A stretch of 64,000 bases of DNA from Phenylobacterium deserti. Lineage in GTDB: Bacteria > Pseudomonadota > Alphaproteobacteria > Caulobacterales > Caulobacteraceae. The notes under the pieces are model-generated. The model saw only the letters and a list, made by a program, of their open reading frames with translations. It made no database searches and was not told the DNA's origin. The stretch is from assembly GCA_943332615.1 (NCBI GenBank), contig CALQQB010000001.1, positions 124,001 to 188,000 on the forward strand, in the 5' to 3' direction. Of this stretch, positions 20,736 through 44,976 are shown piece after piece. Positions within the stretch are counted from its first letter, which is position 1; every line of letters begins with the position of its first letter. Made by a program: the position numbers and the translations under genes.

Positions 20736-20865
20736 TGTGAAGGGGTTCCGCGCCGCGTGAGGGACGCGCCGATCGCCACCGCCATGTAGACCGTAGCAAA
20801 AACTCGCATCAGATCGCCCGAGAACGCCATTTCGACACGAGCCGTCCCACCCTAAGGCATGGGCC

Positions 20866-22362: not shown

Positions 22363-22452
22363 AGCTCCCGGTGTGTTCGACCGTCATCCGCAACCCACCG
22401 CACCGCCTCCGGGCGGACCCTTTGCGCGACCTATCCGATCGGGTGGCGACCA

Positions 22453-22832
22453 TGAGGGGGTCCGACGGCCCGAAGCCGGACGGTTGGGAAGATGTCGGCT
22501 TTGAAGCGACCGTCGGACAGATCTGCGAGCTCTTTGGCGTTACGCCGCGGGCGATCAGGTTCTATGACGAGCACGGCCTCGTTCGGGCGCGCCGAGATAC
22601 ACTGAATCGAAGGCGCTTTGGCCTGGGCGCCAGGCGCCGGCTTGAGATCGTCATCCTGCTGCGCCGGGCCGGCGTCGGCATAAATGATATTCGCAGCGTC
22701 CTCGGTTGCGCTGAGCAGCGCGGTTCTTTCGGGCGCATCGCATCCTTGCTTCGGACGCGGCTCGAGGCGTTGGACCGTGAACGCGCGTCGGTGCTGCTGG
22801 CGCTCGCGAAGCTTGAACAAGCTGCAGCCTGA
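22453..22832 (+). CDS. MerR family transcriptional regulator
   Basis: ATVGQICELFGVTPRAIRFYDEHGLVRARRDTLNRRRFGLGARRRLEIVILLRRAGVGINDI; start approximate. Confidence 0.85.
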
Positions 22833-22834
22833 CC

Positions 22835-23971
22835 ATGGACTTCAACCTCACCGAGGACCAGCGGGCGATCGAGGACGCCGCGCGCGCCTTCGCCGCCGCC
22901 GAACTGGCGCCGCACTCCGCGCGCTGGGACGAGGAGAAGATGTTCTCGCGCGCGGTGCTGCAGCAGGCCGCGGAACTGGGCTTCGCCGGGTTGTATGTCC
23001 GGGAGGACGTGGGCGGTTCGGCTCTCAGCCGCCTGGACGCCTCGCTGGTGTTCGAGCAGCTCTCCTACGGCGACGTGGCCAGTGCGGCCTTCATCTCTAT
23101 CCACAACATGGCCAGCTGGATGGTCGACCGGTTCGGCTCTGACGAGCTGCGTCATCGGTTCCTGCCGAAGCTCACCACCATGGAGCAGATCGCCTCCTAC
23201 TGCCTGACGGAGCCCGGCTCCGGCTCGGATGCGGCCGCGATGAAGACGTCTGCGGTGAAGGATGGTGACCAGTACGTCCTCAACGGCTCCAAGGCCTTCA
23301 TTTCCGGCGCCGGGTTCTCGGATGTCTACGTCGTCATGGCGCGGACCGGCGGGGTGGGCGCTCGCGGCGTCTCGACCTTCGTCGTGGAGAACGGGACGCC
23401 TGGCCTGTCGTTCGGCGCCCAGGAACGCAAGATGGGCTGGAATGCCCAGCCGACCGCTACGGTGAACTTCGACGACTGTCGGGTGCCCGAGGCCAACCGG
23501 GTTGGCGGCGAAGACGAGGGGTTCAAGATCGCCATGGCGGGCCTGGACGGCGGGCGGATCAACATCGCCTCCTGCTCGCTGGGGGGCGCCGGTTTCGCGC
23601 TCGACACCGCCAAGACCTACCTGGAGACGCGCAAGCAGTTCGGCCAGGCGCTCAAGGAATTCCAGGGCCTGCAGTGGCGCTTCGCCGACATGGCCACCGA
23701 CCTGGACGCCGCCCGCCTGATGGTCCGCCGCGCCGCCCATGCTCTGGACAACAAGAACCCCAAAGCCACCCAGTACTGCGCCATGGCCAAGCGCTTCGCC
23801 ACCGACGCCGGCTTCGAGGTGGCCAACCAGGCGCTGCAGCTGCACGGCGGCTACGGCTACCTGCGCGACTATCCGCTGGAGCGCATCGTGCGCGACCTGC
23901 GCGTCCACCAGATCCTGGAAGGCACCAACGAGATCATGCGCGTGATCACCGCGCGGGAGCTGTTCCGCTGA
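22835..23971 (+). CDS. acyl-CoA dehydrogenase (isobutyryl-CoA dehydrogenase by context)
   Basis: MDFNLTEDQRAIEDAARAFAAAELAPHSARWDEEKMF; YCLTEPGSGSDAAAMKTSA; ILEGTNEIMRVITARELFR; located in valine cluster. Confidence 0.9.
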   Translation: MDFNLTEDQRAIEDAARAFAAAELAPHSARWDEEKMFSRAVLQQAAELGFAGLYVREDVGGSALSRLDASLVFEQLSYGDVASAAFISIHNMASWMVDRFGSDELRHRFLPKLTTMEQIASYCLTEPGSGSDAAAMKTSAVKDGDQYVLNGSKAFISGAGFSDVYVVMARTGGVGARGVSTFVVENGTPGLSFGAQERKMGWNAQPTATVNFDDCRVPEANRVGGEDEGFKIAMAGLDGGRINIASCSLGGAGFALDTAKTYLETRKQFGQALKEFQGLQWRFADMATDLDAARLMVRRAAHALDNKNPKATQYCAMAKRFATDAGFEVANQALQLHGGYGYLRDYPLERIVRDLRVHQILEGTNEIMRVITARELFR

Positions 23972-25194
23972 TGAGTGAAGCTGACGAAGTCCTCTGCCGG
24001 GTCGAGGGCAGGGTCGGGCGGATCACGCTCAACCGCCCCCAGGCCATCCATGCGCTGACCACCAACATGTGCCGGCTGATGACCGACGCGCTGGCCGCCT
24101 GGCGAGACGATCCTGGCGTCGAGTTGGTGATGTTCGACCACTCCGGCGAGCGCGGCTTCTGCGCCGGCGGCGACATCCGCATGCTGGCCGATAGCGGCGC
24201 CGGGGACGGCCGGCTGGCGCGGGAGTTCTTCTTCACCGAGTACCGGCTGAACGACCTCATCTTCAACTACGCCAAGCCACGCATCGCCTTCATGGACGGC
24301 ATCACCATGGGCGGCGGCGTGGGCCTCGCGCGGCCCTGCCGGTTCCGGGTGGCGACCGAGCGGACCACCTTCGCCATGCCGGAGAGCGGGATCGGCCTGT
24401 TCCCGGACGTCGGCGGCGGCTGGTATCTTTCGCGCATGCCGGATCACATCGGCCTGTGGCTGGCGCTGACTGGGGCGCGGATCAAGGCGGCCGACTGCGA
24501 ACTGCTGCAGATCGCCACCGACTTCGTGGAGAGCGCGAAAGTTCCCGAGCTCAAGGCCGCGATCCTGGCCGCGCCGGACCGCACCGAGGCGCTGCTCACC
24601 GAGTTCGAAGGCGACGCCGGCCGCCCGACGATCGCCGCTCATCAGGACGAGATCGCCCGCCTGTTTGCCGGCGACACCCTGGAGGCCATCGTTGCAGCCC
24701 TCAAGGCGACCGACACGGATTGGGCGAACGACCAGCTGACGATCCTGGCGACCAAATCACCCACCACCATGAAGGTCAGCCTGCGGCAGCTGCAGCGCGG
24801 GGCCCGCTGCGCCACCTTCGCCGAGAACATGGCGATGGAGTACCGCATCGGCGCGCGTATCGTGCAGAGCCACGACTTCATCGAGGGCGTCCGCGCGGTC
24901 ATCGTCGAGAAGGACAATGCCCCGAAGTGGTCTCCGGCCACGGTCGAAGCGGTCACCGACGCCCAGCTCGATACCATTTTTTCGACCCTCCCTTCCGATC
25001 AGGAGTGGTCGCCGGGTGCGGCGGCGGATCCCGAGGACAAGCTGCACCGCATCGACCCTGGCGTCGTGAAGAAGGAAGTGACGGCCGCCGGCTTCAAGTT
25101 CGAAGGCGAGAGCAACGTGCTGGCCAACCCGGACGACGACCACACGAAGACGGTGTTCGACCCCGTCCACTTGACCTCGGGACTGAACACCTAG
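23971..25194 (+). CDS. 3-hydroxyisobutyryl-CoA hydrolase (crotonase family) with an aberrant C-terminal extension
   Basis: MSEADEVLCRVEGRVGRITLNRPQAIHALTTNMCRLM; GERGFCAGGDIRMLADSG; GVRAVIVEKDNAPKWSPATVEAV...DQEWSP then unrelated tail (see findings). Confidence 0.9.
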   Translation: MSEADEVLCRVEGRVGRITLNRPQAIHALTTNMCRLMTDALAAWRDDPGVELVMFDHSGERGFCAGGDIRMLADSGAGDGRLAREFFFTEYRLNDLIFNYAKPRIAFMDGITMGGGVGLARPCRFRVATERTTFAMPESGIGLFPDVGGGWYLSRMPDHIGLWLALTGARIKAADCELLQIATDFVESAKVPELKAAILAAPDRTEALLTEFEGDAGRPTIAAHQDEIARLFAGDTLEAIVAALKATDTDWANDQLTILATKSPTTMKVSLRQLQRGARCATFAENMAMEYRIGARIVQSHDFIEGVRAVIVEKDNAPKWSPATVEAVTDAQLDTIFSTLPSDQEWSPGAAADPEDKLHRIDPGVVKKEVTAAGFKFEGESNVLANPDDDHTKTVFDPVHLTSGLNT

Positions 25195-25195
25195 G
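25167..25195. mobile_element. fossil IS481-family terminus (solo end) plus CTAG target site
   Basis: ccacttgacctcgggactgaaca|cctagg aligns 18/23 with the terminus of the IS at 44018-44040 (ccatctcacgtcggggctgaaca|tctagc); encodes HLTSGLNT* vs HLTSGLNI*. Confidence 0.55.
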
Positions 25196-25248
25196 TCATC
25201 TACAAGTTCCGCAAGCCCAAATGGGGCGGCGCAGATTCCGAGGATTCC

Positions 25249-26136
25249 ATGACCCGCATTGCGTTCATCGGCCTGGGCAATATGGGCGGCGGGATGGCCG
25301 CCAACCAGGCGAAGGCGGGACGCGAGGTCGTGGCCTTCGACCTCTCGCTGGCGGCGCTCGATAGAGCCGCCGCCGTCGGCTGTTCGCCCGCGGCTTCCGT
25401 GGCCGAAGCGGTAAAGGGGGCCGATGCGGTCATCACGATGCTGCCGGCCGGCCCACACGTGCGGCAGGTCTATGCCGAGCACATCCTGCCCCATGCGCCC
25501 AATACGGCGCTGCTGATCGACTCCTCGACCATCGACGTGGAGAGCGCCCGCGCCGTGGCCGTCCAGGCTACGGCGGCGGGCTTCCGCTTCGCGGACGCCC
25601 CGGTCTCCGGCGGTACGGCGGCGGCAGACGCCGGGATTCTGGCCTTTATGGTCGGCTGCGACGAGGCGGACTTTGCGGCGATCGAGGACGTCATTGCGCC
25701 GATGTCACGGGCGACGATGCGCGCCGGCGACCATGGAGCCGGGCAGGCGGCCAAGATCTGCAACAATATGGTGCTCGGCATCTCGATGATCGGGGTGTGC
25801 GAAGCCTTTGCACTCGCCGAGAAGCTGGGCCTGGAGGGCGAGCGGTTCTTCGAGATCGCGTCCAAGTCCTCCGGCCAGTGCTGGAGCTTGACCAGCTATT
25901 GCCCGTTCCCGGGCCCGGTGCCGACCGCGCCGTCCAACCGCGGCTACGAAGGCGGCTTCGCCACGGCGATGATGCTGAAGGACCTGAAACTGGCGCAGGA
26001 GGCCGCCGCCAAGGCCGGCGCATCGACCCCGCTGGGCGCCACGGCTGAAGGGCTCTACGCGCTGTTCGACCGCCTCGGCGGTGGGGGCAAGGACTTCTCG
26101 GCGATTCTGGAATTGCTGCGGGGCAACGCGCCGTAA
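25249..26136 (+). CDS. mmsB: 3-hydroxyisobutyrate dehydrogenase
   Basis: MTRIAFIGLGNMGGGMAANQAKAGREVVAFDLS; FADAPVSGGTAAADAGILAFMVGC. Confidence 0.93.
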   Translation: MTRIAFIGLGNMGGGMAANQAKAGREVVAFDLSLAALDRAAAVGCSPAASVAEAVKGADAVITMLPAGPHVRQVYAEHILPHAPNTALLIDSSTIDVESARAVAVQATAAGFRFADAPVSGGTAAADAGILAFMVGCDEADFAAIEDVIAPMSRATMRAGDHGAGQAAKICNNMVLGISMIGVCEAFALAEKLGLEGERFFEIASKSSGQCWSLTSYCPFPGPVPTAPSNRGYEGGFATAMMLKDLKLAQEAAAKAGASTPLGATAEGLYALFDRLGGGGKDFSAILELLRGNAP

Positions 26137-26189
26137 GCCATGCGGCCTTCGACAATAGGGCCGCTTCTCGAGGTTTCAGGGAAACCGAC

Positions 26190-27416
26190 ATGACCTCCGA
26201 CTCCGTCGTCATTGCCGCCTACGCCCGCACGCCCATGGGCGGCTTCCAGGGCGTCCTGTCCGGCGCGAAGGCCACCGATCTCGGCGCCGCTGCGGTGAAG
26301 GCTGCCGTCGAGCGCTCGGGCGCCGATCCCGCGGCGGTCGAGCAGATCATCATGGGCTGCGTGCTGCCCGCGGGCCTGGGCCAGGCGCCGGCTCGCCAGG
26401 CGGCCCTCGGCGCCGGCCTGCCGACTTCCGTCGAGGCGGTCACCGTCAACAAGATGTGCGGCTCGGGCATGCAGGCCGCGATCCTGGCGCACGACGCCCT
26501 GGCCGCGGGCTCCGCCGACATCATCATCGCCGGCGGCATGGAGAGCATGACCAACGCGCCGTACCTGATGACCAAGCACCGTGGCGGCGCCCGCATCGGC
26601 CACGACACCCTGTTCGACCACATGTACCTGGACGGCCTGGAGGACGCCTACGAGCCCGGCCGCCTGATGGGCTCCTTCGCCGAAGAGAGCGCCAAGCACT
26701 ACCAGTTCACCCGCGAAGCGATGGACGACTACGCCATAGCTTCTCTGTCAAAGGCCAAGGCCGCCATCGAGAGCGGTGCCTTCAAGCGCGAGATCACTGC
26801 GGTCACGATCACCGACCGCAAGGGTTCCACCTCGGTCGACACCGACGAACAGCCCCTGAAGGCCGACCCGTCGAAGATCCCGACGCTGCGCCCCGCCTTC
26901 GCCAAGGATGGCGCCATCACCGCCGCCAACGCCTCGTCGATCTCCGACGGCGCCGCCGCCCTGGTGATGACCCGCGAGAGCGTGGCCCGGAAGCTGGGCA
27001 TGACCATCGTCGCTCGCGTCGCCAGCCACGCCGCCCACGCCCACGAGCCCGGCCTCTTCACCACCGCCCCCGTGCCCGCTATCCAGAAGGCCCTGAAGCG
27101 CGCCGGCTGGTCCGTGGCCGACGTCGACCTCTTCGAGGTCAACGAGGCCTTCGCCGTCGTCGCCATGATCGCCGAGCGCGACCTCGGCCTCGACCGCGCC
27201 AAGCTGAACATCCACGGCGGCGCCTGCGCCCTCGGCCACCCCATCGGCGCCAGCGGCGCGCGCATCCTGGCGACCCTGCTCAGCGCCCTCGAAACCACCG
27301 GCGGCAAACGCGGCGTCGCCAGCCTCTGCATCGGCGGCGGCGAAGCCACGGCGATGGCGGTGGAGTTAGCCCAGAGCGTCGTCGCACCGGCCCTTGGACC
27401 GTCGCGAGGGGCTTGA
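26190..27416 (+). CDS. acetyl-CoA C-acetyltransferase (thiolase)
   Basis: VIAAYARTPMGGFQGVLSG; TVNKMCGSGMQAAILAHDALAAG; NIHGGACALGHPIGASGARI; VASLCIGGGEATAMAVE. Confidence 0.93.
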   Translation: MTSDSVVIAAYARTPMGGFQGVLSGAKATDLGAAAVKAAVERSGADPAAVEQIIMGCVLPAGLGQAPARQAALGAGLPTSVEAVTVNKMCGSGMQAAILAHDALAAGSADIIIAGGMESMTNAPYLMTKHRGGARIGHDTLFDHMYLDGLEDAYEPGRLMGSFAEESAKHYQFTREAMDDYAIASLSKAKAAIESGAFKREITAVTITDRKGSTSVDTDEQPLKADPSKIPTLRPAFAKDGAITAANASSISDGAAALVMTRESVARKLGMTIVARVASHAAHAHEPGLFTTAPVPAIQKALKRAGWSVADVDLFEVNEAFAVVAMIAERDLGLDRAKLNIHGGACALGHPIGASGARILATLLSALETTGGKRGVASLCIGGGEATAMAVELAQSVVAPALGPSRGA

Positions 27417-29000: not shown

Positions 29001-29342
29001 TCATGTGGCGACGCGCGGTCGCGAGAGCGCAATGAAGAGCAGCGCCCCTAGGACGAGCATCGCTTCCAGCCCGCCCGCGGCCACACTTGCATAGGCGAAG
29101 GGCTCGGCGACGAACAACAGCACGCCGGTGACTGAACCCGCGACTGCCAGCACAAGCAGGCCAGTCGGAGCGGGCCGCGCGACGCGCGGTGCGTACAGCA
29201 GAGCGACCACGAGGAGCGCCGCGAGCGCCCAGCAGATGGCTGTATTGGTTCGCTCCAGGACCTTCAGACTCCAGCTCGCGCCCCGCAGACTCACGGCGAT
29301 CGCGCTGTTCTGAAGGCTGATCAGCAGTGACGCGAGGCCCAT
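29001..29342 (-). CDS. small multi-pass membrane protein of unknown function
   Basis: 113 aa with about 3-4 hydrophobic segments; start 24 bp from the GAATTC motif. Confidence 0.55.
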   Translation of the reverse strand: MGLASLLISLQNSAIAVSLRGASWSLKVLERTNTAICWALAALLVVALLYAPRVARPAPTGLLVLAVAGSVTGVLLFVAEPFAYASVAAGGLEAMLVLGALLFIALSRPRVAT

Positions 29343-29365
29343 GGTGATTGCTCTTATAAGAATAA

Positions 29366-29378
29366 GAATTCGAATTCG
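29366..29378. promoter_or_regulatory. operator-like GAATTCGAATTCG motif (copy 1)
   Basis: Read directly between divergent 29001..29342(-) and 29437..29928(+); motif end 59 bp from the + start codon. Confidence 0.55.
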
Positions 29379-29436
29379 TGTTGTCGCATATCCGATGTGG
29401 TCCTATCAATGGACGAAAGAGGATCGGAGGAACCAG

Positions 29437-29928
29437 ATGCGTCGTTTCGGAACCCTTGCCGCGGTCGCACTGCTCGCGTCCTGCTCGCCCAAACCCAAGC
29501 CGCCCGAGCCGGCCCCCTTCAACACCGCCATTCCCATCAACGAGGTCATGGCTCATGTCATGGACCCCGCCGCGGACGCGTTCTGGGGCGGCATGGGGAC
29601 CTCCTACACGGTGGCGGGCGAGCGGGACCTTTCGCCGACGACAGAGGCCGAATGGAAGCGCGTCGAGGATGGCGCGGCGACCGTTGTGCTGGCGACCAAC
29701 TCGCTGATGGTCCCCGGCTATCAGCGGGCTCCGATCGCCGACTGGAATCGGCACGCAAAGGGGGTCGCCGACGTCGCGCTTCGCGCAAAGGCGGCGGTCG
29801 AGAAGAAGGACATGGTCGCCATGATGGAGATCGGCGACGAACTCGATCGTGCCTGTGAGGCATGCCACAAGCAGTTCTCCCCGGCGATCGCCAAGCCGTA
29901 TGTCGCGCCTGCGGGGCCGACGAAGTAA
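29437..29928 (+). CDS. cytochrome c'-like lipoprotein with CxxCH haem-binding motif
   Basis: MRRFGTLAAVALLASCSPKPK lipobox; CEACHKQFSPAI near the C-terminus. Confidence 0.65.
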   Translation: MRRFGTLAAVALLASCSPKPKPPEPAPFNTAIPINEVMAHVMDPAADAFWGGMGTSYTVAGERDLSPTTEAEWKRVEDGAATVVLATNSLMVPGYQRAPIADWNRHAKGVADVALRAKAAVEKKDMVAMMEIGDELDRACEACHKQFSPAIAKPYVAPAGPTK

Positions 29929-29964
29929 GCCCCGCCCGGGACGGGCGCCGACCCAGTGTCCGCC

Positions 29965-30465
29965 TCAGCCGACGCCCAACACGGGCAGATAGCGGCCGAG
30001 CACGATCACGCTCGCCCAGAGCGCCAGCGACATGGCAGCGACGACCCGCGTCCGTCCCGGAGGCTTTGCGCCTTCCGGTAGGGCCAGGAGCTCGCGGCGT
30101 TCGGCCAGCTCGAACCAGGCCACGTTGAGGCCTGCCAGCATCACGGCGCCCATCTTGACCCAGAACAGTGGGTTGCCCGCGTAGTTGGCGGGGTTGGATG
30201 TGAAGAAGCCGATGCCACTCAACAGGTTGATCACGAAGCCCGCGATCGCCAGGCGCGTGAACACCAGGACCGGCCTGATGGGCCCGCGCAGGAACCCCAC
30301 GAGCCGAAGGTCGACGAGGACCATCGCGCCGATTAGCAGGCAGAGGCCGATGAAGTGAATGGTTTCGAGCGTCGGGAACAGATAGGCGCTGTTGCGGATG
30401 GCCTCGCCGAGCGCGGTATCGTGGATCGCCTGGAGGATGGCGGGATCGATCGTGGGAACGTCCAT
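29965..30465 (-). CDS. DUF6644-like membrane protein
   Basis: LGEAIRNSAYLFPTLETIHFIGLCLLIGAMVLVDLRLVGFLR; multiple TM segments. Confidence 0.6.
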   Translation of the reverse strand: MDVPTIDPAILQAIHDTALGEAIRNSAYLFPTLETIHFIGLCLLIGAMVLVDLRLVGFLRGPIRPVLVFTRLAIAGFVINLLSGIGFFTSNPANYAGNPLFWVKMGAVMLAGLNVAWFELAERRELLALPEGAKPPGRTRVVAAMSLALWASVIVLGRYLPVLGVG

Positions 30466-30479
30466 GCTGCGGACCCCTG

Positions 30480-30971
30480 TCAGACGTATTTGATCGTGTA
30501 GGCGATGATCCGCCCCGAGATGATCGCCGCGGTCCAGAGCAGGAGCATGACGGCGGTGATGCTCTTCGCCCGCGTGGAGGCTGGGCCGCCGGTGCCGAGG
30601 CCGCCTGGCGCCGCCGCCAGCGTCCTCGTCAGCGCCCAGAGCGTCAGGCCACCGAGCGCGATGAAGGTGAGCTTGAGCAGAAAGGGCGGGTTCTCGATGA
30701 GGTGGCGGCCGTTCGCGGCGAACAGAAAGAGACCTGTCAGCAGGTTCAGGCCAAACCCTGCCCAGGCCAGCCGGTAGAGCTGCTCGAAGACATCATAGGG
30801 CAGTGACTTGGAGAGCCCGAGGACACGGGCGCCGAGCATGAACACGATGCCGACCACCACGCCCATCCCGATCGCGTGTCCCGACAGGAGGCCATAGTAG
30901 ACGAGTTGGTTTTCGCTAACCCAGCTTCCCAATGGGGAGCGGCCCAGCCATTCCAGGAACTCCATCCGCAC
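30480..30971 (-). CDS. DUF6644-like membrane protein, tandem paralogue
   Basis: MEFLEWLGRSPLGSWVSENQLVYYGLLSGHAIGMGVVVGIVFMLGARVLGLS; same layout as its neighbour. Confidence 0.55.
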   Translation of the reverse strand: MRMEFLEWLGRSPLGSWVSENQLVYYGLLSGHAIGMGVVVGIVFMLGARVLGLSKSLPYDVFEQLYRLAWAGFGLNLLTGLFLFAANGRHLIENPPFLLKLTFIALGGLTLWALTRTLAAAPGGLGTGGPASTRAKSITAVMLLLWTAAIISGRIIAYTIKYV

Positions 30972-31303
30972 GTCTCCCCATCAGCAATGGTGATCTCACG
31001 CTACGGGAGGGCCGACGTGCGGACTATGACCGGGGCCGATCAATCGGCTGCCGGATTTCGACAGTCAGGCCAGCCGGCTTTGCCTCTGGCGAATTGCGCC
31101 AACCGATTGAACCCCTTTGCCATCGTGGAGAGCGCGCGCGCTCGATAGCGTAGGTGCCTACGGGGGAGGCTTTTCGCGACGGGAGGCCGATCCGCCGGGA
31201 CCACAAACCCGGGAGTGGTGAGCGCCAGTCCTGCCAGCGCCGCGTTCAGTGCGGCTGGGCATGGTTCGCGCCCATCGTCCTGCCGCGAGAGGCTAGCCGG
31301 AAG

Positions 31304-32206
31304 ATGCGCTTCGTTCTTACCTTCATTTTCGGCGCCTGCCTTTGCCTCGCCGGGGCGAATCCGGCGCTCGCGCAGTTTCCAGACAACATCACCGCCAAGA
31401 TGCAGGCGGGCCCCAAGTTCCCATGCCCGCCTGGTGGCTACTATCCGCCGATGTACGGCATCGTCGGCCGCAATGCCGGGGACGGACCCGCCCCGACCGA
31501 GGCTGTCAGCCCTTGCACGCCCCCTGAGGTCGTCGCCGCAGCGACATCGCTCGGCATGGCGCGCTCGCACTTCAATTCCCCGCTCGGCGTGAAGGCGGTC
31601 ATGACCATCATGTTCACTGCGCAGGGGACCTTTGCGACCGACGGCAAGACCGCGCGCCCGATCGAGAAGCTCGACTTCCACGTCCACTACGGACTGCCGG
31701 GAGCTCGGCTGATGGTGAAGGTCGGCGAGAAACTGGACATCACCGCCCTCAACGACGACGCCGCCTGGAAAGAGATCTCGGAGGGCGGCGCGGCGACGCC
31801 GGCCATGAACCGTGGCCGCGAGATGCTCGCGCTCACCAAGCTGACCCCGGCCGGCGCGCTTTGGTCGGTTATCGAGGCCGAAGGCCACACCCAGGTCAGC
31901 CACGTCGGCGGCAAGACCGTGCTGCGCGGCGCGAGCCCCTACGATGGCATGGACGTGACGGTGACCCTGGACGCCAACGATCGGCCGGAAAGTGTCAAGG
32001 TCGTCGACGGGAAGACCACCTATGGTGCGACGTTCGGCGACTACACGGACGGCTTCGAGTCCCTCTTCCTGTTTGTCTTCCCCAAGCATCTTGCGTGGAC
32101 GAAGAACGGCCGGCCGTTCGCCGACCTGACGGTGACCGCCTACAAGACCAATCCCTACGTGGTCTTCCCGGTGCCCGAGAACGTGAAGCATGCGAGCGCC
32201 AAGTGA
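31304..32206 (+). CDS. exported protein of unknown function
   Basis: MRFVLTFIFGACLCLAGANPALAQFPDN signal peptide. Confidence 0.65.
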   Translation: MRFVLTFIFGACLCLAGANPALAQFPDNITAKMQAGPKFPCPPGGYYPPMYGIVGRNAGDGPAPTEAVSPCTPPEVVAAATSLGMARSHFNSPLGVKAVMTIMFTAQGTFATDGKTARPIEKLDFHVHYGLPGARLMVKVGEKLDITALNDDAAWKEISEGGAATPAMNRGREMLALTKLTPAGALWSVIEAEGHTQVSHVGGKTVLRGASPYDGMDVTVTLDANDRPESVKVVDGKTTYGATFGDYTDGFESLFLFVFPKHLAWTKNGRPFADLTVTAYKTNPYVVFPVPENVKHASAK

Positions 32207-32242
32207 TCGGCTCGCCCAAGACCATCGTGCAAGGAGCGTGAC

Positions 32243-33121
32243 GTGAACACAGCATGGCGCCTCGCCTCAGCGGCGGCGGTTCTGATAGTGGCGGGAGCCG
32301 CCCCGGCGGAGCTCACGGCCCAACCTGCGGGTCAGACGCAGGTCGTGGACCCCTCGACCTACCATCCGACCAAAAAGCGGATCTCGCCCTTTGCAGCCTA
32401 TGCGGCGGCCCAGCAGACCAATCCGTTGGGCAAGCTGCCGACGCCACGCACGGCGGATGGAAAGCCCGATCTGACCGGCTTCTGGGGCAGCATTCCATCA
32501 CTGGCTGGGCCGGGTGGCATCCGCATCGATGGCTCCTTCGAACCCGACCAGGCAGCGTTGCAGCGCGCGTCCGGCTGGGAGAAGCCCCTCTACAAGCCGG
32601 AATTCTGGGACAAGGTCCGCAGCCTGGACTTCAGCAAGGTCGATGTGGACACCGTGTTCAACTGCTTCCCGCCGGGTGTCCCGCGTACCAATGTGCCGTC
32701 GCAGATCATCCAGACGCCCACGCAGACCGTGCTCATCTATGGCGGCCTGCGGACCCGGGTTGTGCCGACGGATGGCCGAAAGCTGACCCCGGAAGACGAG
32801 GACATGTCGACCTTCGATGGCATTTCGGTGGGCCGCTGGGAGGGCGACACCTTGGTCGTGGAGTCCGTCGGATTCACCGACGTCTCCTGGCTGCAGTGGC
32901 AGGGCTACTTCCACACCAACCAGATGAAGGTGACCGAGCGGTTCCGCCGGCAAGGGAACCTCCTGTTCTACGATTTCACCGTCAACGATCCCGACGTCCT
33001 GATGGAACCGTGGACCCAGGGCACGCTGGTGCAGCGGTTGCTGCCGGCCAACGGGCGGGTGGGAGAGTACGACCCTTGCGTGGTTCTTGAGCCATCCGGC
33101 GACCCCTACATGCGCGGGTAG
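32243..33121 (+). CDS. exported protein of the RTxDGKPDLTGFW family (function unknown)
   Basis: Signal-like N-terminus; TPRTADGKPDLTGFWGSIPS, QIIQTPTQTVLIYGGLRTRVVPTDGRK, SVGRWEGDTLVVESVGFTD, VTERFRRQG. Confidence 0.7.
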   Translation: MNTAWRLASAAAVLIVAGAAPAELTAQPAGQTQVVDPSTYHPTKKRISPFAAYAAAQQTNPLGKLPTPRTADGKPDLTGFWGSIPSLAGPGGIRIDGSFEPDQAALQRASGWEKPLYKPEFWDKVRSLDFSKVDVDTVFNCFPPGVPRTNVPSQIIQTPTQTVLIYGGLRTRVVPTDGRKLTPEDEDMSTFDGISVGRWEGDTLVVESVGFTDVSWLQWQGYFHTNQMKVTERFRRQGNLLFYDFTVNDPDVLMEPWTQGTLVQRLLPANGRVGEYDPCVVLEPSGDPYMRG

Positions 33122-33139
33122 TGCCGGCGGTTGCGACTA

Positions 33140-33158
33140 GAATTCGAATTCGAATTCG
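33140..33158. promoter_or_regulatory. operator-like (GAATTC)3G motif (copy 2)
   Basis: GAATTCGAATTCGAATTCG, 50 bp upstream of the 33208 start codon. Confidence 0.55.
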
Positions 33159-33207
33159 CATATTGTGAAATCTGCCGGCCGGACGGCAACGCAAGAAGGA
33201 TGAAGTC

Positions 33208-33597
33208 ATGAGGAAAATCCTGGGCGCACTGGTGGCTGCGGCCGCCATTACCAGCACCGTCGCCGTGATCCCCGCGTTCGCGCATCACAACGCCAATGCT
33301 CAATGGTTCACCGACAGGGATGTGCCGGTGACGGGCGTGCTGAAGGAGCTGCGGGACATCAGTCCCCACGCTCATTGGCTTGTGGAGGTGAAGAACGCAC
33401 AGGGCGGCCTAGACGTCTGGGACCTGGAAGCCATCAGCGCCAACGCCCTGCGTCGCCAGGGCATCATGGTCAAGCAACTGATCAAGCCGGGGCAGAGCTA
33501 TACCTTCTACACCGCGCCCTCGCGCGACGGGTCCAAGACGGCCTTCATCAAAGGTATCCTGCTGAACGGCAAACGCGTCGATTTCGTCCGGCTGTAG
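33208..33597 (+). CDS. DUF6152-like exported protein
   Basis: MRKILGALVAAAAITSTVAVIPAFAHHNANAQWFTDRDVPVTGVLKELRDISPHAHWLVEV. Confidence 0.7.
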   Translation: MRKILGALVAAAAITSTVAVIPAFAHHNANAQWFTDRDVPVTGVLKELRDISPHAHWLVEVKNAQGGLDVWDLEAISANALRRQGIMVKQLIKPGQSYTFYTAPSRDGSKTAFIKGILLNGKRVDFVRL

Positions 33598-33626
33598 TTC
33601 GGAACGCGTACTCATCAGACCACAAG

Positions 33627-33659
33627 CGCCACCCCAGGTCGGCCTGGGGTGGCGTTTTT
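33627..33659 (+). terminator. Rho-independent terminator
   Basis: CGCCACCCCAGG-TCGG-CCTGGGGTGGCG 12-bp perfect stem followed by TTTTT. Confidence 0.9.
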
Positions 33660-33684
33660 GCGTTGTGGGCTGCGAAGCCTGACC

Positions 33685-35880
33685 TCAACGGGTCGGTAGC
33701 GGCCGATAGAGCCCCGGTTCGGGATAGGAGAGCCAGGTGCCGGCCGGTCGAACCTGCCCCACGGGCCGTTGCCTGTAGTCACAGACGCCGTCCGGGAAGA
33801 TCTCCTGAAGACGGGCGAGTTGGTAGCCGCTCAGCGGTTTGGCGTAGCTGTCGGCGCGAACAGGACGCAGAGCGCACTTCAAATGCAGGCGAGCCAGCGG
33901 CTCGCCGGCGGCCATGCGGGGATCGGCGTGTGACGGGAACTCGGCCATGCAGGACTTTCCATCCGACGATGAGAGATCGTGGCGGCGCCCGGCTGTATCG
34001 AAGCAGGCATCCTGGAGCGTGCGCGGCCGGTTCGCTACGACCTTCCGGGCGCGCGGCGCCGCCGTGCCATCTGCCGCGATGGCCCTGAGCCAGGCGTCCA
34101 TCGCGGCGATCGCTTCGCGGGTGGCGACGCGCATCGGCGAGTCGGATCCGGCCATGTCTTCGCGGAGAGAGCCCCGGGTCGCGGTGGTCCAGCTCACGAA
34201 GTTTCTGGACTGGCCATTGGCTCCCTCCCAGCGGGCGCGGGCGACCTCCGTGGTCTGAGCGGTGTGCACGTCGGGCGGCAGGGTCTTGTCGAGATAGGAG
34301 CGCAGGTCGAGGATCGGAACGGCATCCATCCCGATGCCCTGGTTCACACGACCCGTCGCGTAGGCGGTATGCAGCGCCTGGGGATCCGCGCGCATCCGCT
34401 GGGGTACGATCTGGGCATCAGCGTTGAAGCCGCCGATCCGACGGTTCAGGTCGGCAAACTGATCAAAAGTGATCAGACCGTGGTTGAAGGCGGCGAGCCC
34501 ATATTGGACCCCGACATTGTCGAGCGGTGATCGGGACGAGCCGTCGGGGCGCCGACCCCAGATGTTCACTGCATTGTCGAAGTAGCCGCAGCGCACGCCG
34601 TCCGGGCTGGTCTTCGGGTCGTAGAGGCGCCGCGTCTGTGGCGCGCCGAGGGAGCCCGCCACGCCGCCGCCTTCCTGAGCTGTGACAAAGGCGGTTGCGT
34701 CACAGCCGGAGCCAAGCGGCGAGACCCAACGGGGCAAGTAGTTGAACCACGCCTTCGCGCAGTGGTCGTAGCTCGGAAAGCCGACCACCGCGCTCTTCTG
34801 CGCGTCTGTCCAGCCCGCCGCGGCGCTGAGATAGTTGTGCAGGAGGGGACAGTCAGCGCCGCTGGCCAGGGTGGTCAGCGTATCCGGGAAGCTGCGCTCG
34901 GGGATGATCCCGTCGAGGATGCCAGGGTAGTTGGCGACAATCAGGTTCTGCTGCATGGAGCCGCCGGAACCGCCCCAACCGATGGTGAAGCGCGGTGGGC
35001 CGAACGTCTCGATGAACCGCTCCTTGACCATCATGGCCGTCTCGGCCGCGGTCACGTCGTTACAGTTCTGCCCAAGGGTATTAAGTGTCGCTGTGGCGAT
35101 TGCGTAGCCCAGTTCCAACGGGTCGTTGCCGAACTCGGGATGGTTGACGACGCCGACGGTCGCGCGCCCCTGCCTGTAGGCCGCCCCGCATCCCCCGCCG
35201 AATGCGTAGACCAGTCGGCCATTCCAACCCTTCGGGGGGCTGAGCGGAGAGACCGCTTCCTCGGGCCGGGCCAGGACGGCCACCTGATAGATCGCCCGGT
35301 TGACCACCCCAGTCTCCAGCCGGACGACGTAGTCAACGGTCGCGCCGTCCTTGGTTGTCGCCTTCGCGACGTCGGCCGCCGAGGGTCCGTCGGCGCGGTA
35401 AGGTTTCAGCTGCCCGTCGGTGACGGACTTATAGAGGTACTGAACCTTAGTCGGCGCCCAGCAATCCAGCTCGCGCGCTGGCCCAAGCGTCCCGCCATCG
35501 GGGAGCTTGAAGGCGTGGGTCTCGCACACGAAGGGGCTCTGGTGCGGGCCGGAGAAGACCGGCCCCCCGCCCGGGTAGTTGATCAGCGTTAGCTTCGCGG
35601 AGGCCCCGCGGTTCACAACCTCAATCACGTTGCGCCCTTCTCGTAGCCCCGTGACCAGTCCCAGCCGGCCCGCGCGATCGGTCGTCGGCTGAAACGCCGC
35701 CCTGGCCGGCCGGCCGTTGACCATCACTCGGCCAACGGCGGGAACCTCCACGAACGCGTCTCCCCCGGTGACGGCCCAGGGGGGGGACGAGAGGACGCGA
35801 ATGGCCGGTTTCGCACTCGCGTGCGCAGCCGCGGCCAGCAGCAAGGCGCCGACGGCGGCGATCAGGACGAAGGTTTTCAT
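33685..35880 (-). CDS. DUF6351-like exported hydrolase/esterase-like protein
   Basis: MKTFVLIAAVGALLLAAAAHASA signal; GGPVFSGPHQSPFVCETHAFKLPDGGTLGPARELDCWAPTKVQYLY; TIGWGGSGGSMQQNLIVANYPGILDGIIPERSFPD. Confidence 0.7.
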   Translation of the reverse strand: MKTFVLIAAVGALLLAAAAHASAKPAIRVLSSPPWAVTGGDAFVEVPAVGRVMVNGRPARAAFQPTTDRAGRLGLVTGLREGRNVIEVVNRGASAKLTLINYPGGGPVFSGPHQSPFVCETHAFKLPDGGTLGPARELDCWAPTKVQYLYKSVTDGQLKPYRADGPSAADVAKATTKDGATVDYVVRLETGVVNRAIYQVAVLARPEEAVSPLSPPKGWNGRLVYAFGGGCGAAYRQGRATVGVVNHPEFGNDPLELGYAIATATLNTLGQNCNDVTAAETAMMVKERFIETFGPPRFTIGWGGSGGSMQQNLIVANYPGILDGIIPERSFPDTLTTLASGADCPLLHNYLSAAAGWTDAQKSAVVGFPSYDHCAKAWFNYLPRWVSPLGSGCDATAFVTAQEGGGVAGSLGAPQTRRLYDPKTSPDGVRCGYFDNAVNIWGRRPDGSSRSPLDNVGVQYGLAAFNHGLITFDQFADLNRRIGGFNADAQIVPQRMRADPQALHTAYATGRVNQGIGMDAVPILDLRSYLDKTLPPDVHTAQTTEVARARWEGANGQSRNFVSWTTATRGSLREDMAGSDSPMRVATREAIAAMDAWLRAIAADGTAAPRARKVVANRPRTLQDACFDTAGRRHDLSSSDGKSCMAEFPSHADPRMAAGEPLARLHLKCALRPVRADSYAKPLSGYQLARLQEIFPDGVCDYRQRPVGQVRPAGTWLSYPEPGLYRPLPTR

Positions 35881-36086
35881 CGAGCCGATGTTCCAGCACA
35901 CGCCCATCGACGCGTGGACGCGTCTGGGCTTCGCCCAGGATCATTCGGCGCGCGGGGAGTTCCGCCTATGGCGGAAACGATCAATCGACCGCCGCGATGC
36001 GCCAACTTTGCCAGCACCAATTGCGACTCCGGCCCCGCGGTGTTTTACCTCCATGGACTGTTCGACCGTGAGAAGGTGATGGCCCA

Positions 36087-36755
36087 GTGAGCGTAGTCAG
36101 GAAAAAGTCGCGCCGCGACCTCGTCGCCCGTGACTATGACACGTCGGCGCTTTCCAATGCCCCGCAACAGAGACGCAGCCAGCAACTATCTCTGCGAATC
36201 CTGGAGGCGGCCGAGCGTGTCCTGCTCCGCGACGGCCTCCAAGCCTTCACGATCGTCGGCGTGGCGGCGGAAGCGGGTGTTTCCGTAGGCGGCATCTACG
36301 GCCGCTTCAAGCATCGGGAGGAACTGCTCTCCGCGATCCACACCGAAACCCTGATGAAGATTCAACATCACCTCGAGGCGGTGGCAGATCGGAAATTCGA
36401 AACGCTGCGGGAAGGCGCGGAAGTCTTCGCGATCGAGGTAGTCAACCTGTTCGAAGAAGTCGGCAGCCTCTTGCCGATGGCCCGTCGGCCGGACAGCAAG
36501 GCAGAAGCTTCGACAGTATACAGCGTAGAGAGGGCCATCCGAGCCGCCTTCGCGAGGGTGGTGGATCCTTTCAAAAGTCAGATCAAACACGTCGATCTCG
36601 ATATCGGGCCCCGCCTGGTCGTACACCTTCTGCTGGCTAGCACGGTCAGGGAGGCGGCGACCGATCCAGGCGCCACGGACCGCAAGATGGGTTGGGATAT
36701 CCTGCGCCGCGAGCTGCCACGAGTCGCCGGGGCCATCATGACCGGCGTCTATTGA
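36087..36755 (+). CDS. TetR family transcriptional regulator
   Basis: SLRILEAAERVLLRDGLQAFTIVGVAAEAGVSVGGIYGRFKHREELLSAIH. Confidence 0.9.
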   Translation: MSVVRKKSRRDLVARDYDTSALSNAPQQRRSQQLSLRILEAAERVLLRDGLQAFTIVGVAAEAGVSVGGIYGRFKHREELLSAIHTETLMKIQHHLEAVADRKFETLREGAEVFAIEVVNLFEEVGSLLPMARRPDSKAEASTVYSVERAIRAAFARVVDPFKSQIKHVDLDIGPRLVVHLLLASTVREAATDPGATDRKMGWDILRRELPRVAGAIMTGVY

Positions 36756-36772
36756 CCATAGCGGACAACCGG

Positions 36773-37315
36773 ATGTGGGGACGAGACCCTCCCCAGGGGT
36801 ATGGGTGGACTTCGATCGCCCTTCACTGGGCGAGTGCGGTGGCTATCACGGTGCTCCTGTTCGTGGGGGTATCGATCGGAGGTGAGTCCGCGGCGCGAGC
36901 GATCCAGCTGCATACCTCTGTCGCGGTGACGCTTTATTTCGTGCTCTGGGGCCGCATCGCGTGGCGAATTGTGTGCGGTCACCCGACCGCCGCCCACCCG
37001 ACACATCGCGTCGTCCACGGAATCGGCGTGGTCGTCCACTTCGCGATCCTGAGCTGCCTGGCGGTTATGCTGGTCACCGGTCCGTTCATGGCCGCAGCAG
37101 GACGAATCCCGGTGAGCGTGTTCGGCCTGTTCGAAGTTCCCCCCGTGATCGCGCCCAACCCGCTGGCGTTTCGGCTTCTGCGCCAGATCCACGCCGTTAC
37201 GGCCGCGCTCATCAGCGGCCTGGTTACGGTGCATGTGCTCGGGGTGGTCAAGCACATGGTGTTCGATCGCGACGGCGTCTTCGACCGGATCATGATCGCC
37301 GCCGGGCGGCCGTAG
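36773..37315 (+). CDS. cytochrome b561 family protein
   Basis: GWTSIALHWASAVAITVLLFVG; HTSVAVTLYFVLWGRIAWRIV; HPTHRVVHGIGVVVHFAILSCLAVMLVTG; QIHAVTAALISGLVTVHVLGVVKH. Confidence 0.8.
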   Translation: MWGRDPPQGYGWTSIALHWASAVAITVLLFVGVSIGGESAARAIQLHTSVAVTLYFVLWGRIAWRIVCGHPTAAHPTHRVVHGIGVVVHFAILSCLAVMLVTGPFMAAAGRIPVSVFGLFEVPPVIAPNPLAFRLLRQIHAVTAALISGLVTVHVLGVVKHMVFDRDGVFDRIMIAAGRP

Positions 37316-37330
37316 CCCCGCGGCGGAGCT

Positions 37331-38437
37331 TCAGATCACAGCGCGCATCGGCCGGCGGAAGGCGTTCGGTGTCGCGCCCGTCCACTTCCTGAAGGCTCGG
37401 TAGAAGGTGCTCGGATCGCCGAAGCCCAGCTCCTCGGCGATGTCAGCGTTGGATTTTTCGTTACGGCGCAGCTGTTGGATGGCCCGCTCTCGCCGAACTT
37501 CGTCCTTAATGCGCTGATAGGATGTCCCTTCGGTCTCCAGCCGCCGGCGAAGCGTTGAGGCCGTAGTGTACAGGCGCGACGCGAGGTCCTCGAAGCCGGG
37601 CCATTCCTCGGGGGACGTGCGGCGTAGCTCGCTCCAGACCCGCGCCGAGACGCTGTCGCGGCTCTTGTACTGAGCCATGAGGGATTGGGGCGAGTCCCGC
37701 CGAAAGGTCTCCATCTGCGACTCGTTACGCATCGGTCGCATCGCGAGGAATGCTGCACTGAAGCGGATGCGCGTTTCGGGCTGGTCGAACTTGAGGTTCT
37801 CGCCCAAAAGGCGCTGATAGTTGTGCGCGCCCGCCGGACGGGCGGAGCGGAAATCGATGCTGAGCAGCGGGATGCGCCGGTCGATCAGCCAGTGCGAAAC
37901 CCCCAGAAACACCACGAAGAAGATGGAATATGCAAAGGCCGAGCGGGGAGGGCCGTTCTCCCGCAGGACGATCTCGGCGATGTCGCCATCGCGAACGAGT
38001 TCTGCCTCGAAGTCGGACAGCAACACCCGATAGAAGCGCAGCAGGCGCATCATCGCGCGCTCAAGCGTCGGAGACGTCAAGACGGTGTGGCACATCAGAA
38101 TAAAGCTGCCGCGCGGTAAGCCCCGCACATCCTGGCCGAAGAATTCGTCGTTGGTTGCGTCAGCGTAGGTGCGCCAGAATCGGCCGAACTGGTCCGCCGT
38201 GACCTCAGCATCTTCCACATCCAGCAGGGAGGGCGCTATTCCCGCCGTCTCAAGCAGTGTGTCGTGGTCGAAGCTGGCGGCCCAGGGGCTTGCCATCGCC
38301 TCGCGCAGAAAGAATACAGGCACCGAATCGCCGGACTCGCCAGCCACGTCCGAGCGCGGCTCCTGCCGCACACCCGTCCTCAGCATGTGGCCCAGCCGAT
38401 GATGGACCGCGTGCTCGGCGCGCATAGAGACTGCCAT
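37331..38437 (-). CDS. AraC family transcriptional regulator (arabinose-binding-domain type N-terminus)
   Basis: C-terminal LYTTASTLRRRLETEGTSYQRIKDEVRRERAIQQLRRNEKSNADIAEELGFGDPSTFYRAFRKWTGATPNAFR. Confidence 0.9.
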   Translation of the reverse strand: MAVSMRAEHAVHHRLGHMLRTGVRQEPRSDVAGESGDSVPVFFLREAMASPWAASFDHDTLLETAGIAPSLLDVEDAEVTADQFGRFWRTYADATNDEFFGQDVRGLPRGSFILMCHTVLTSPTLERAMMRLLRFYRVLLSDFEAELVRDGDIAEIVLRENGPPRSAFAYSIFFVVFLGVSHWLIDRRIPLLSIDFRSARPAGAHNYQRLLGENLKFDQPETRIRFSAAFLAMRPMRNESQMETFRRDSPQSLMAQYKSRDSVSARVWSELRRTSPEEWPGFEDLASRLYTTASTLRRRLETEGTSYQRIKDEVRRERAIQQLRRNEKSNADIAEELGFGDPSTFYRAFRKWTGATPNAFRRPMRAVI

Positions 38438-38495
38438 CGTGTCTCCTTCCCCTTGGCACCTGCGTCGTTGCGCAGATGACAGTTTAGAAATACAC

Positions 38496-38508
38496 GAATT
38501 CGAATTCG
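38496..38508. promoter_or_regulatory. operator-like GAATTCGAATTCG motif (copy 3)
   Basis: Within the 16-bp perfect palindrome ACGAATTCGAATTCGT, 59 bp upstream of the AraC start, between divergent AraC (-) and TonB receptor (+). Confidence 0.6.
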
Positions 38509-38733
38509 TATTCCAGAAATTTATGTCAGTGCTGTCCGCACGAGACGGGTCGGCTGCCAGGCGATGCCTCGGCAGGCGATCTCTGTCGTATTCGATCAAT
38601 GCTTTGGCGGGCGGCGCCATAGCAGGCGTGAAGGCCTCGCTTGTAGGTTCTGGGGACCCGCGAGGCCGCGCCGCAAACTCGGGTGGCCGAGCGCCGGGGC
38701 GGCGTGGCTGCCGACATTCACCGAGGATATCGC

Positions 38734-40896
38734 ATGGCCAGGCTTGGCGTTTTGGTAAGCGCATCGCTTGCATTGGCTTGCGCAGGCGCAGCGCAAGCCC
38801 AGACGACAGGTGCAGCTCGTTCCGCCCCACCCGTGGAGGTCAGGCAGAGCTACGATCAAGCCTATTTCGCCCTGTATCGGGTGCAAAACGCGGAAGACAT
38901 GCTGCGGCGCGTCCCAGGCGTGGCGGCCATTGTCGACGCGGCCAGCCCCACCACTCAGACTCGCGGCTTCGGTTCGGGGGGCGACCAGATACTGCTGGGC
39001 GGCAAACGTATGGCCGCCAAGGGGCAAATACTGCAGACGCTGCGGCGCATTCCGGCGGCAAACGTTGAGCGGATCGAACTGATCCGGGGGACTTCAGCGG
39101 ACATCGACGTTCAGAGCGAGGGCCTTGTCGTCAACATCGTACTGAAGTCCGGGGCGCGAGCCGGCGGTGCCGGATCGTACGAGGTCAACTATCGCTTCGA
39201 CGACCGGGGCTTCAATACTGTCGATGGTTTGCTGTCCTATTCCAACAGCCTTGGGGGGCTGTCGTATGTGCTCGGTGTCGAGACGAACCACTGGTCGATT
39301 CCCGGCACGACGCCGACCGGGGGGTTTGGCGACTACTCCCGCCGCTTCCGGGACGAGATCTACTACTATCCAAGCGGCGCGCCGCAGGAACTCCGGCCGC
39401 AGCACTGGAGCCGCCGGCACAAGAAGAAGATTTTCACCGCCAACCTTGTCTACGACTTCGCATCCGGCGACCAACTCCGGTTCAACGCCCTCTTCCAGCC
39501 CCTGCCGATCCGCGAGATCGACCGTACGGACTACACGACGCTCTCGGCAGCGGGAGCCGTCACGGGGGCCGGCCTGGAATACCACCAGCGCAACCTCCAC
39601 AATGAGCAGCTGGCGCTTGGGTCCGAACTCCAGAAGCGCCTCGGTCCGGGGTCCCTGACGGTCCTGGGTCTCTTCACGAGGGCCACAACGGAGACGAGCG
39701 ACTTCAGGACCCGAACGCCACGGGGAGGTCTGCTCACGGAGGTCAGCCGCAGCGGTCTCGACCAGCGCACGGTTGAAGGCATCTTCAGGTCATCGTACGC
39801 CGCGCCGATCGCCCGGGGGCAGCAACTGACCGTCGGGGGCGAGATCGCCCAGAATACCCTGACCCAGGACTTGGGCTTCTTCTTCGACCGCGATCGGGAC
39901 GGACGCCTGGAGCCCATCGCGATCCCGACATCACACGCGCGAGTGAGGGAAGTGCGCGGCGAGGCGTTCGCCGTGCATGACTGGCAGATCACGCCGCAGC
40001 TGAGCCTGGAGAGCACGCTGAGCGTCGAGGCCTCGACGATCACCACCAACTACCCGGCGATCCCCAAGCACTCATACCGCTTCCTGAAGCCGCGCCTTGA
40101 CCTGCGCTACACACCGACTCCCCGCGACCGCTGGCGTGTGAAGGCCGAGCGCACGGTCAGCCAGCTCGATTTCAACAACTTCGTGCCGACCTACAATGTC
40201 GCCATCGACCGGATCGACTTCGGCAACCCGGAGATCCAGCCGCAGAAGACCTGGGTTTACGAGGTTGGGTTCGAACATCGCCTCGCCGGCGACGGCGGGA
40301 CCTTGGAGGGGCGGGTCTTCTATCAGGACATCAGGGACCTGATCGACCGCGGGCCTTTGGGCCCTTCTGTTGCCGGGCTCCCCCAGTCAGCGCCGATCAA
40401 CATCGACCATGCCCGGCTTTACGGCGTGGAACTGAAAGCCAGCGTGCGCCTCACGGCCCTCGGACTCCCGAACGCCCAGGTCAACACGCGCTTGCTGCGG
40501 CAGTTCTCCCGGGTGGAGGACCCATTCACCCAACTCTACCGCAAGCTCAAGGACCCCTGGAATCGGGAGTTCAGTTTCGGATTCCGCCACGATCTGACGG
40601 CGCTTGGCGCATCTTACGGCGTGAACTACCTCGATACCGGCGGACCCCAGGTGACCAGCGACATTCGGAATTTGGACGACTACAGGCGCGGGCCTCGGGT
40701 GGACGCCTTCTTCGAGAAGGCCCTTCCGAACCGATTCAGCGTCCGGCTGGAGGCCTACAACCTCACCCGATCTCATGAATATCTGCGCCGTGCGCTCTAC
40801 CGCGTTTCGCAGGCGGACGGGGCTCTCGTTCGCTCTCAAGCGTATGAGGAAGTGCGGGACCGGCGGTTCGCCATTCGCCTCCGGGGAAAGTTCTGA
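38734..40896 (+). CDS. TonB-dependent receptor
   Basis: MARLGVLVSASLALACAGAAQAQ signal; plug-like AEDMLRRVPGVAAIVDAASPTTQTRGFGSGGDQILLGGKRMAAKG; IELIRGTSADIDVQSEGLVVNIVLKSG. Confidence 0.88.
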   Translation: MARLGVLVSASLALACAGAAQAQTTGAARSAPPVEVRQSYDQAYFALYRVQNAEDMLRRVPGVAAIVDAASPTTQTRGFGSGGDQILLGGKRMAAKGQILQTLRRIPAANVERIELIRGTSADIDVQSEGLVVNIVLKSGARAGGAGSYEVNYRFDDRGFNTVDGLLSYSNSLGGLSYVLGVETNHWSIPGTTPTGGFGDYSRRFRDEIYYYPSGAPQELRPQHWSRRHKKKIFTANLVYDFASGDQLRFNALFQPLPIREIDRTDYTTLSAAGAVTGAGLEYHQRNLHNEQLALGSELQKRLGPGSLTVLGLFTRATTETSDFRTRTPRGGLLTEVSRSGLDQRTVEGIFRSSYAAPIARGQQLTVGGEIAQNTLTQDLGFFFDRDRDGRLEPIAIPTSHARVREVRGEAFAVHDWQITPQLSLESTLSVEASTITTNYPAIPKHSYRFLKPRLDLRYTPTPRDRWRVKAERTVSQLDFNNFVPTYNVAIDRIDFGNPEIQPQKTWVYEVGFEHRLAGDGGTLEGRVFYQDIRDLIDRGPLGPSVAGLPQSAPINIDHARLYGVELKASVRLTALGLPNAQVNTRLLRQFSRVEDPFTQLYRKLKDPWNREFSFGFRHDLTALGASYGVNYLDTGGPQVTSDIRNLDDYRRGPRVDAFFEKALPNRFSVRLEAYNLTRSHEYLRRALYRVSQADGALVRSQAYEEVRDRRFAIRLRGKF

Positions 40897-44051: not shown

Positions 44052-44976
44052 CCTGAAGCGGTGCGGCTCTTTCGTCCATGCTTTGCAGATGGCCTCGAAG
44101 GGCGTGAGGCCGGCGAGGGCCTTCAGGCGTTTGGCGAAGTTGTAGGCGCCGACGGAGGGGGCCAGGTGCGCCCGTACCTGCTCGTGACTATCGTAATGGT
44201 AGCTGCGGACCGTAGCGTCCTTGAGCGTGCGGTTCATGCACTCGACCTGGCCGTTGGTCCACTGGTGAGCCGGTGATCGATGTCGGCCCTAGCGCAAGCC
44301 AGCTCAAGGGCATGGGCCCAAACGATCTCGCAGGCGTCCAGCGCGAACCGGATGTCCTTGGCGGCCGAGCAGCTGTTGCCGGGGGTCGTGAAGTGGGTGC
44401 CGTGTCAGTGAGCACGGTGTGGGTCTTGTACGGGACCGCCTCGATCAGCCGCCGCAGGAGGTGGGCGGCGGTCCTGCGGCTAACGCGCTCGTGCAGCTCG
44501 ACGAAGACGAACTTGCTCGTCCGGTCGATGGCCACGAGCATGTAGAGCTTGCCCTCCTCGGCCCGGACCTCGGCGATGTCGATGTGGAAGTAGCCGATCG
44601 GGTACTTCGTGAAGACCTTCTTGCCGGACTTATCGGTCTCGATGGCTGGCAGGCGAGAGATGTCGTGCCGCTGGAACAACCGGTGGAGCGACGAGCGGGT
44701 CAGGTGCGGGATCGTCGCCTGCAGGGCGTACAGGCAGTCGTCCAGCGGCAGCAGCGTGTGACGGCGGAAGGCCACCGCCATCGCTTTGTCTGCCGGTGTC
44801 AGCACGGTCGAGCGCGGGGCCTTTGGTCCCATCGGCGCGTCCTGCACCGTATCGCGACCGCGCCACTTCCTCACCGCCTTGCGGTTCAGTCCGTGCTGCT
44901 GTGCGAGCTCTTGGATCGGCGCTTTTGATCGCTGTATCGCCGCTCGGACGGCGTGCCCTCGGCGCAGGAGCGCCAC
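44013..44976 (-). pseudogene. IS481-family transposase pseudogene
   Basis: N-part VDIAEVRAEEGKLYMLVAIDRTSKFVFVELHERVSRRTAAHLLRRLIEAVPYKTHTVLTD (first residues read HIDIAEVRAEEG), then frameshift; C-part MNRTLKDATVRSYHYDSHEQVRAHLAPSVGAYNFAKRLKALAGLTPFEAICKAWTKEPHRFRLSPDHLTSGLNI in another frame. Confidence 0.85.

Follow-up and report, generated by a model that had tools for sequence, protein, structure and literature searches.

A window of 64,000 nucleotides from the genome of Phenylobacterium deserti (i.e. the whole stretch of DNA analysed here) carries a GAATTC-rich motif at three promoters, which raises two questions: is this motif the operator of a small regulon, and if so, which regulator binds it? 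The initial annotation described a (GAATTC)n element, with GAATTCGAATTCG at 29366-29378 and 38496-38508 and (GAATTC)3G at 33140-33158, and we verified all of these coordinates, together with those of a 16-bp palindrome, ACGAATTCGAATTCGT, at 38494-38509. The copies are intergenic, as described, and the start codons of a lipoprotein gene (29437), a DUF6152 gene (33208), and araC (38437) are about 50-58 bp away.

We find that the 12-mer GAATTCGAATTC has 4 matches in the window, representing 3 places, and that it appears in 0 of 100 dinucleotide shuffles of the window; the initial observation is confirmed and proves stronger than described. A search of the organism's own genome (4.67 Mb, 118 contigs) locates GAATTCGAATTC only at the three promoters, so the statement that there was no other copy holds genome-wide, and the motif is neither abundant nor present in coding sequence. 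The three places span 9.2 kb and are all intergenic, a clustering that is far from chance. Among 101 genomes of the genus, 15 contain GAATTCGAATTC, including this one, and the other 14 have one copy each. The abundance of EcoRI sites was considered as a source of the motif and rejected, as single GAATTC sites are only mildly enriched (19 observed vs. 12 expected) and GAATTCGAATTC is unique to the cluster.

The (GAATTC)n repeat is not the conserved unit. Comparison with relatives reveals instead a 20-bp inverted repeat, ATNCGAAT-N4-ATTCGNAT, and the 4-bp spacer TCGA is what makes the copies in the window look like repeated EcoRI sites. When the sites are combined, traces of outer arms, CTRGAAT, appear around this core. 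The three sites in the window are:

29362-29381, no strand: putative operator S1, ATAAGAAT-TCGA-ATTCGTGT, upstream of the lipoprotein gene
33142-33161, no strand: putative operator S2, ATTCGAAT-TCGA-ATTCGCAT, upstream of the DUF6152 gene; matches the consensus exactly
38492-38511, no strand: putative operator S3, ACACGAAT-TCGA-ATTCGTAT, between araC and a TonB-dependent receptor gene

For S1, an alternative register overlaps at 29356-29375. The lipoprotein, DUF6152, and araC genes each start 46-57 bp from their site; for S3, the distance is 54 bp to araC and 222 bp to the start of the TonB receptor gene. The genes next to these sites, other than araC, are:

29001-29342, minus strand: 113-aa hydrophobic open reading frame without a Pfam family, divergent from the lipoprotein gene; doubtful target
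29437-29928, plus strand: lipoprotein gene with a CxxCH motif (cytochrome c-like, judged from sequence); predicted target of S1
33208-33597, plus strand: DUF6152 protein gene (PF19649, 8.3e-15); predicted target of S2
38734-40896, plus strand: TonB-dependent receptor gene (PF00593, PF07715), divergent from araC; possible target of S3

Only one of the 101 genomes of the genus, G098, has close orthologs of the two regulators encoded in this cluster (AraC 92% and TetR 87% identical). The exact GAATTCGAATTC is absent from this relative, yet one-mismatch copies are found at all three of its orthologous promoters. In alignments of the intergenic regions (araC/TonB receptor, DUF6152, and lipoprotein gene), the blocks containing the sites are conserved and their surroundings less so. 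For example, S2 precedes DUF6152 in both genomes, the relative having ATACGAATCCGAATTCGTAT at the orthologous place. The lipoprotein ortholog (77% identical) also has its own site, although the gene has been relocated within the cluster, where it is flanked by the acyl-CoA dehydrogenase and aldehyde dehydrogenase orthologs. Since the site moved with the lipoprotein gene in this rearrangement, S1 is coupled to that gene and not to the 113-aa open reading frame, for which a comparison with 20 kb of the G098 cluster revealed no match. As such, the proposal that copies 1 and 3 lie in divergent promoters stands for copy 3 (araC/TonB receptor), while copy 1 is divergent here with the lipoprotein gene as the only side seen to be conserved.

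Several other features were observed in and around the cluster. A block of about 32 bp, TTCGATCAATGCTTTGGCGGGCGGCGCCATAGC, at 38590-38623 upstream of the TonB receptor gene is near-identical in G098 amid a diverged region. The adjoining genes at 15378-27416 encode an acyl-CoA dehydrogenase, an aldehyde dehydrogenase, a MerR regulator, enoyl-CoA hydratase-like and 3-hydroxyisobutyrate dehydrogenase-like proteins, and a thiolase; they resemble a branched-chain acyl-CoA degradation locus, and it is among these genes that the G098 lipoprotein gene sits. Just past the cluster, at 44188-44976, is a transposase-like gene with an integrase core (rve) domain.

Conservation extends beyond the genus. In another genus of the family, three genomes encode an AraC protein 45-47% identical to that of the window, each with an adjoining TetR homolog, and we refer to this pair as the module. 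The two loci with a readable region upstream of araC both have a site, ATACGAATAAGAATTCGGAT (L037/L033) and ATGCGAATTCTTATTCGCAT (L036/L031); the contig of the third (L038) stops at araC, leaving no upstream region to read. Overall, the araC promoter bears the site in 4 of 4 readable module loci, 50-57 bp from the araC start. A weight matrix built from the three window sites alone, and thus a non-circular check on the sites of relatives, gives best scores upstream of araC of 31.4 (L034), 24.4 (L036), and 25.2 (L037), each at or near the top for its whole locus. By contrast, 22 regions upstream of AraC homologs outside the module have a best score below 10. Of 385 genomes sampled across the class, only the organism's own yielded a TetR that passed the ortholog threshold (E <= 1e-30).

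Genome-wide uniqueness and the orthologous promoters of three other genomes strongly support the initial proposal of a small, cluster-specific operator regulon. We conclude that the sequence and distribution of ATNCGAAT-N4-ATTCGNAT very probably mark it out as the operator of a small local regulon. The shared switch at the three promoters is real, conserved, and cluster-specific, yet a fairly ordinary kind of local control circuit. No description of ATNCGAAT-N4-ATTCGNAT was found in the literature searched, and a text search for GAATTCGAATTCG together with operator or repressor returned nothing relevant.

Which protein, then, binds the sites? Two regulators are encoded between S2 and S3:

36087-36755, plus strand: TetR-family regulator (PF00440, 9.1e-11); proposed binder of S1-S3
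37331-38437, minus strand: AraC-family regulator with a PF12625 N-terminal domain (2.9e-42) and PF12833 (2.8e-19); probable target and rival binder

The initial annotation preferred AraC and named TetR as the alternative. Our analysis favours the latter, and we consider it likely that TetR binds S1-S3 and represses the araC, DUF6152, and lipoprotein promoters. TetR homologs adjoin AraC in 5 of 5 module genomes. Exact 20-mers occur in 4 of the 5 module genomes, and beyond these a motif scan of 390 genomes of the family finds them only in G375 and G020, where they adjoin TetR genes and no relative of the module AraC was found. Specifically, the palindrome of G375 lies 9 bp upstream of the TetR start codon, that of G020 lies within the promoter of a PF00144 hydrolase-TetR operon, and a third genome, G031, has a one-mismatch site arranged as in G020. 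The TetRs of these three genomes have DNA-binding domains that rank among the closest to that of the window TetR in the matches listed from the 390 genomes, the G375 domain being the best outside the module. A palindrome beside TetR genes that lack an AraC partner favours TetR over AraC.

Co-location of a palindrome with such a TetR gene within 1.5 kb is expected 0.006 times and seen three times, an estimate based on about 185 TetR matches with a similar HTH (an approximate figure), about 1.5 Gb, and 17 palindromes outside the module. Because G375 helped build the HTH profile, the comparison without it is two vs. 0.006, and G020 and G031 may represent one inherited arrangement. The association of exact 20-mers with the module (Fisher test) is partly circular, as the consensus was drawn from module sites, and we do not rely on it. 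Two further arguments favour TetR: the symmetry and geometry of the dyad, with two 5-bp arms and a 4-bp spacer as in PsrA operators, and the presence of the site before araC in every readable module locus, which makes araC probably a target and not the binder. The sites, their specificity and conservation, and their co-occurrence with TetR genes can all be read directly from the genomes compared.

The palindromes in the PF00144 hydrolase-TetR operons are at 7094-7166 of locus L162 (G020) and 7402-7421 of locus L163, with a second, weaker palindrome about 50 bp downstream in L162. In another genus, four loci (L190, L191, L192, and L197) encode TetRs with a similar recognition helix near GAATTC-centred palindromes, e.g. 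TGAATCTGAATTCATCTTCA, which are possibly a related operator class. No matching site was seen at the closest paralogs of the window TetR in its own genome or at the relatives of these paralogs within the genus. An AlphaFold model of the window TetR, built on a 4-sequence alignment, is poor, with most of the DNA-binding part at pLDDT <50.

Several observations count against TetR. The tetR promoter itself has no match to the 20-bp dyad, in the window or in module relatives, and in all readable module loci the site is borne by araC and not by tetR. A different palindrome, GTTCCGCCTATGGCGGAAAC, lies at 35959-35978 between DUF6351 and tetR; it is identical in G098, within an intergenic region that is 87% identical, and is possibly the operator of TetR itself or of another regulator. 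If TetR used this palindrome instead, the 20-mer would be left to AraC. The recognition helices of the G020 and G031 TetRs differ from that of the window TetR. Finally, a scan of the region found no sigma-70 consensus promoter, and hence no transcription-blocking position for the sites, which counts against repression by TetR.

Alternatively, AraC may bind the sites, regulating its own gene and activating or repressing the other two promoters. The constant position of the site before araC, the palindrome in the site-free tetR promoter, and a reported AraC-family protein that binds a roughly palindromic 20-mer (MSMEG_0307; PMC4266540) all speak for this reading. On the other side, AraC homologs without a TetR neighbour have no upstream site, even though the second HTH is nearly family-wide, the palindrome adjoins TetR genes in genomes that lack this AraC, and the AraC-family regulators VqsM, CdpR, and GliR are reported to bind asymmetric motifs (PMC4176358, PMC8151288). 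Homologs of about 30-44% identity occur in Burkholderia, Rhizobium, Noviherbaspirillum, and others (one genome per species, 84,980 species), and among the 80 AraC loci examined, the site is present only in Caulobacterales loci with a TetR neighbour. The AraC recognition helices, compared between site-bearing and site-free loci, do not clearly separate the two hypotheses. It is the site-free tetR promoter with its own palindrome and the MSMEG_0307 precedent that keep TetR as a likely, and not a near-certain, binder, and that leave AraC as an unlikely one.

A regulator encoded elsewhere in the genome, whose sites only happen to lie beside the local tetR and araC, is less probable still. In its favour, three more exact cores, CGAATN4ATTCG, are intergenic in the same genome, but these fit the outer arms less well, and the exact 20-mer tracks the TetR-AraC module across the family. 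The extra cores, the only others in this genome, are L173 (G000 C1:211919), L172 (G000 C2:137218), and L171 (G000 C33:21262), upstream of BD-FAE esterase, flavin monooxygenase, and TonB receptor genes; two of them share the 15-mer ACGAATGTAAATTCG and are perhaps the operator of another regulator. The (GAATTC)2-3 units do resemble a short tandem repeat, but a functionless simple repeat, born of chance or mutation, is the least credible explanation and is contradicted by conservation, since the genome has no other copies and relatives break the hexamer repeat (GAATTCTAATTC, GAATCCGAATTC, GAATAAGAATTC) while keeping the dyad.

Returning to TetR as the binder, we infer a mechanism in which a TetR dimer, or a pair of dimers, probably binds ATNCGAAT-N4-ATTCGNAT at the araC, DUF6152, and cytochrome c-like lipoprotein promoters, and perhaps also influences the divergent TonB receptor gene from S3. 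Repression would last until a ligand derived from the substrate releases TetR, and the AraC then made would be a second-tier regulator of other promoters in the cluster, perhaps through TCAATSNNNNGSCG-like boxes. The sequence TCAATSNNNNGSCGS occurs four times in the window, at 31040-31054 (+), 31096-31110 (-), 35981-35995 (+), and 38596-38610 (+), always intergenic and within the cluster; 0.6 copies are expected, and four were reached by 1 of 100 shuffles. Two of the four TCAATSNNNNGSCG-like boxes recur at orthologous places in G098. This candidate AraC box was chosen after looking and is only a lead. The full picture, i.e. a conserved two-tier cascade from TetR to AraC in the Caulobacter family, with an apparently undescribed operator and with AraC acting through the asymmetric TCAATSNNNNGSCG-like box, so that the TonB receptor, lipoprotein, and DUF6152/DUF6644/DUF6351 genes would all be controlled, is one that we put forward tentatively and regard as somewhat doubtful.

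For a cluster in which most members are of unknown function (DUF6152, DUF6644, and DUF6351), these findings offer an operator that can be tested and a regulator that likely represses through it; DUF6152 has no mention in the literature searched. The ligand of the repressor would point to the substrate of the cluster. The findings also tie a single operator class to TetRs that resemble one another in their DNA-binding domains across several genera of the family, which helps assign operators to orphan TetRs.

The closest known systems come from both regulator families. The P. aeruginosa AraC-family regulators VqsM, CdpR, and GliR are reported to recognise asymmetric motifs of 11-15 bp, e.g. GGATSNNNTYGGCCA (PMC4176358, PMC8151288), in contrast to the dyad found here. 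The AraC of the window is related to them, with CdpR as its best solved match (5chh) and GliR matching it over residues 55-362, below its cut-off. MSMEG_0307, the AraC-family regulator of the nat operon, binds the roughly palindromic 20-mer ACCTCGACAGCAGTTCAGGT upstream of its own cluster (PMC4266540), showing that such binding is possible for this family, although ACCTCGACAGCAGTTCAGGT is unrelated in sequence and only partly symmetric.

Among TetR-family systems, P. aeruginosa PA3973 has several targets, and its promoter contains a palindromic operator, TGAATCC GGATTCA (PMC9736018). The palindromic form, the GAAT arms, and the several targets resemble our sites, while the spacing and sequence differ, and PA3973 is autoregulated, with no linked AraC in that account. 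The PsrA-type operators of P. aeruginosa PsrA and S. maltophilia Smlt2053 follow G/CAAAC(N2-4)GTTTG/C (PMC10304680). Their arms differ from the CGAAT found here, where the dyad reaches at least 20 bp through its outer arms, and PsrA-type regulators repress their own gene, whereas the tetR promoter here lacks the site. Otherwise the likeness to the PsrA type is one of design: an inverted repeat of 5-bp arms separated by at most 4 bp, a TetR-family repressor (as proposed here), and a small regulon of local targets.
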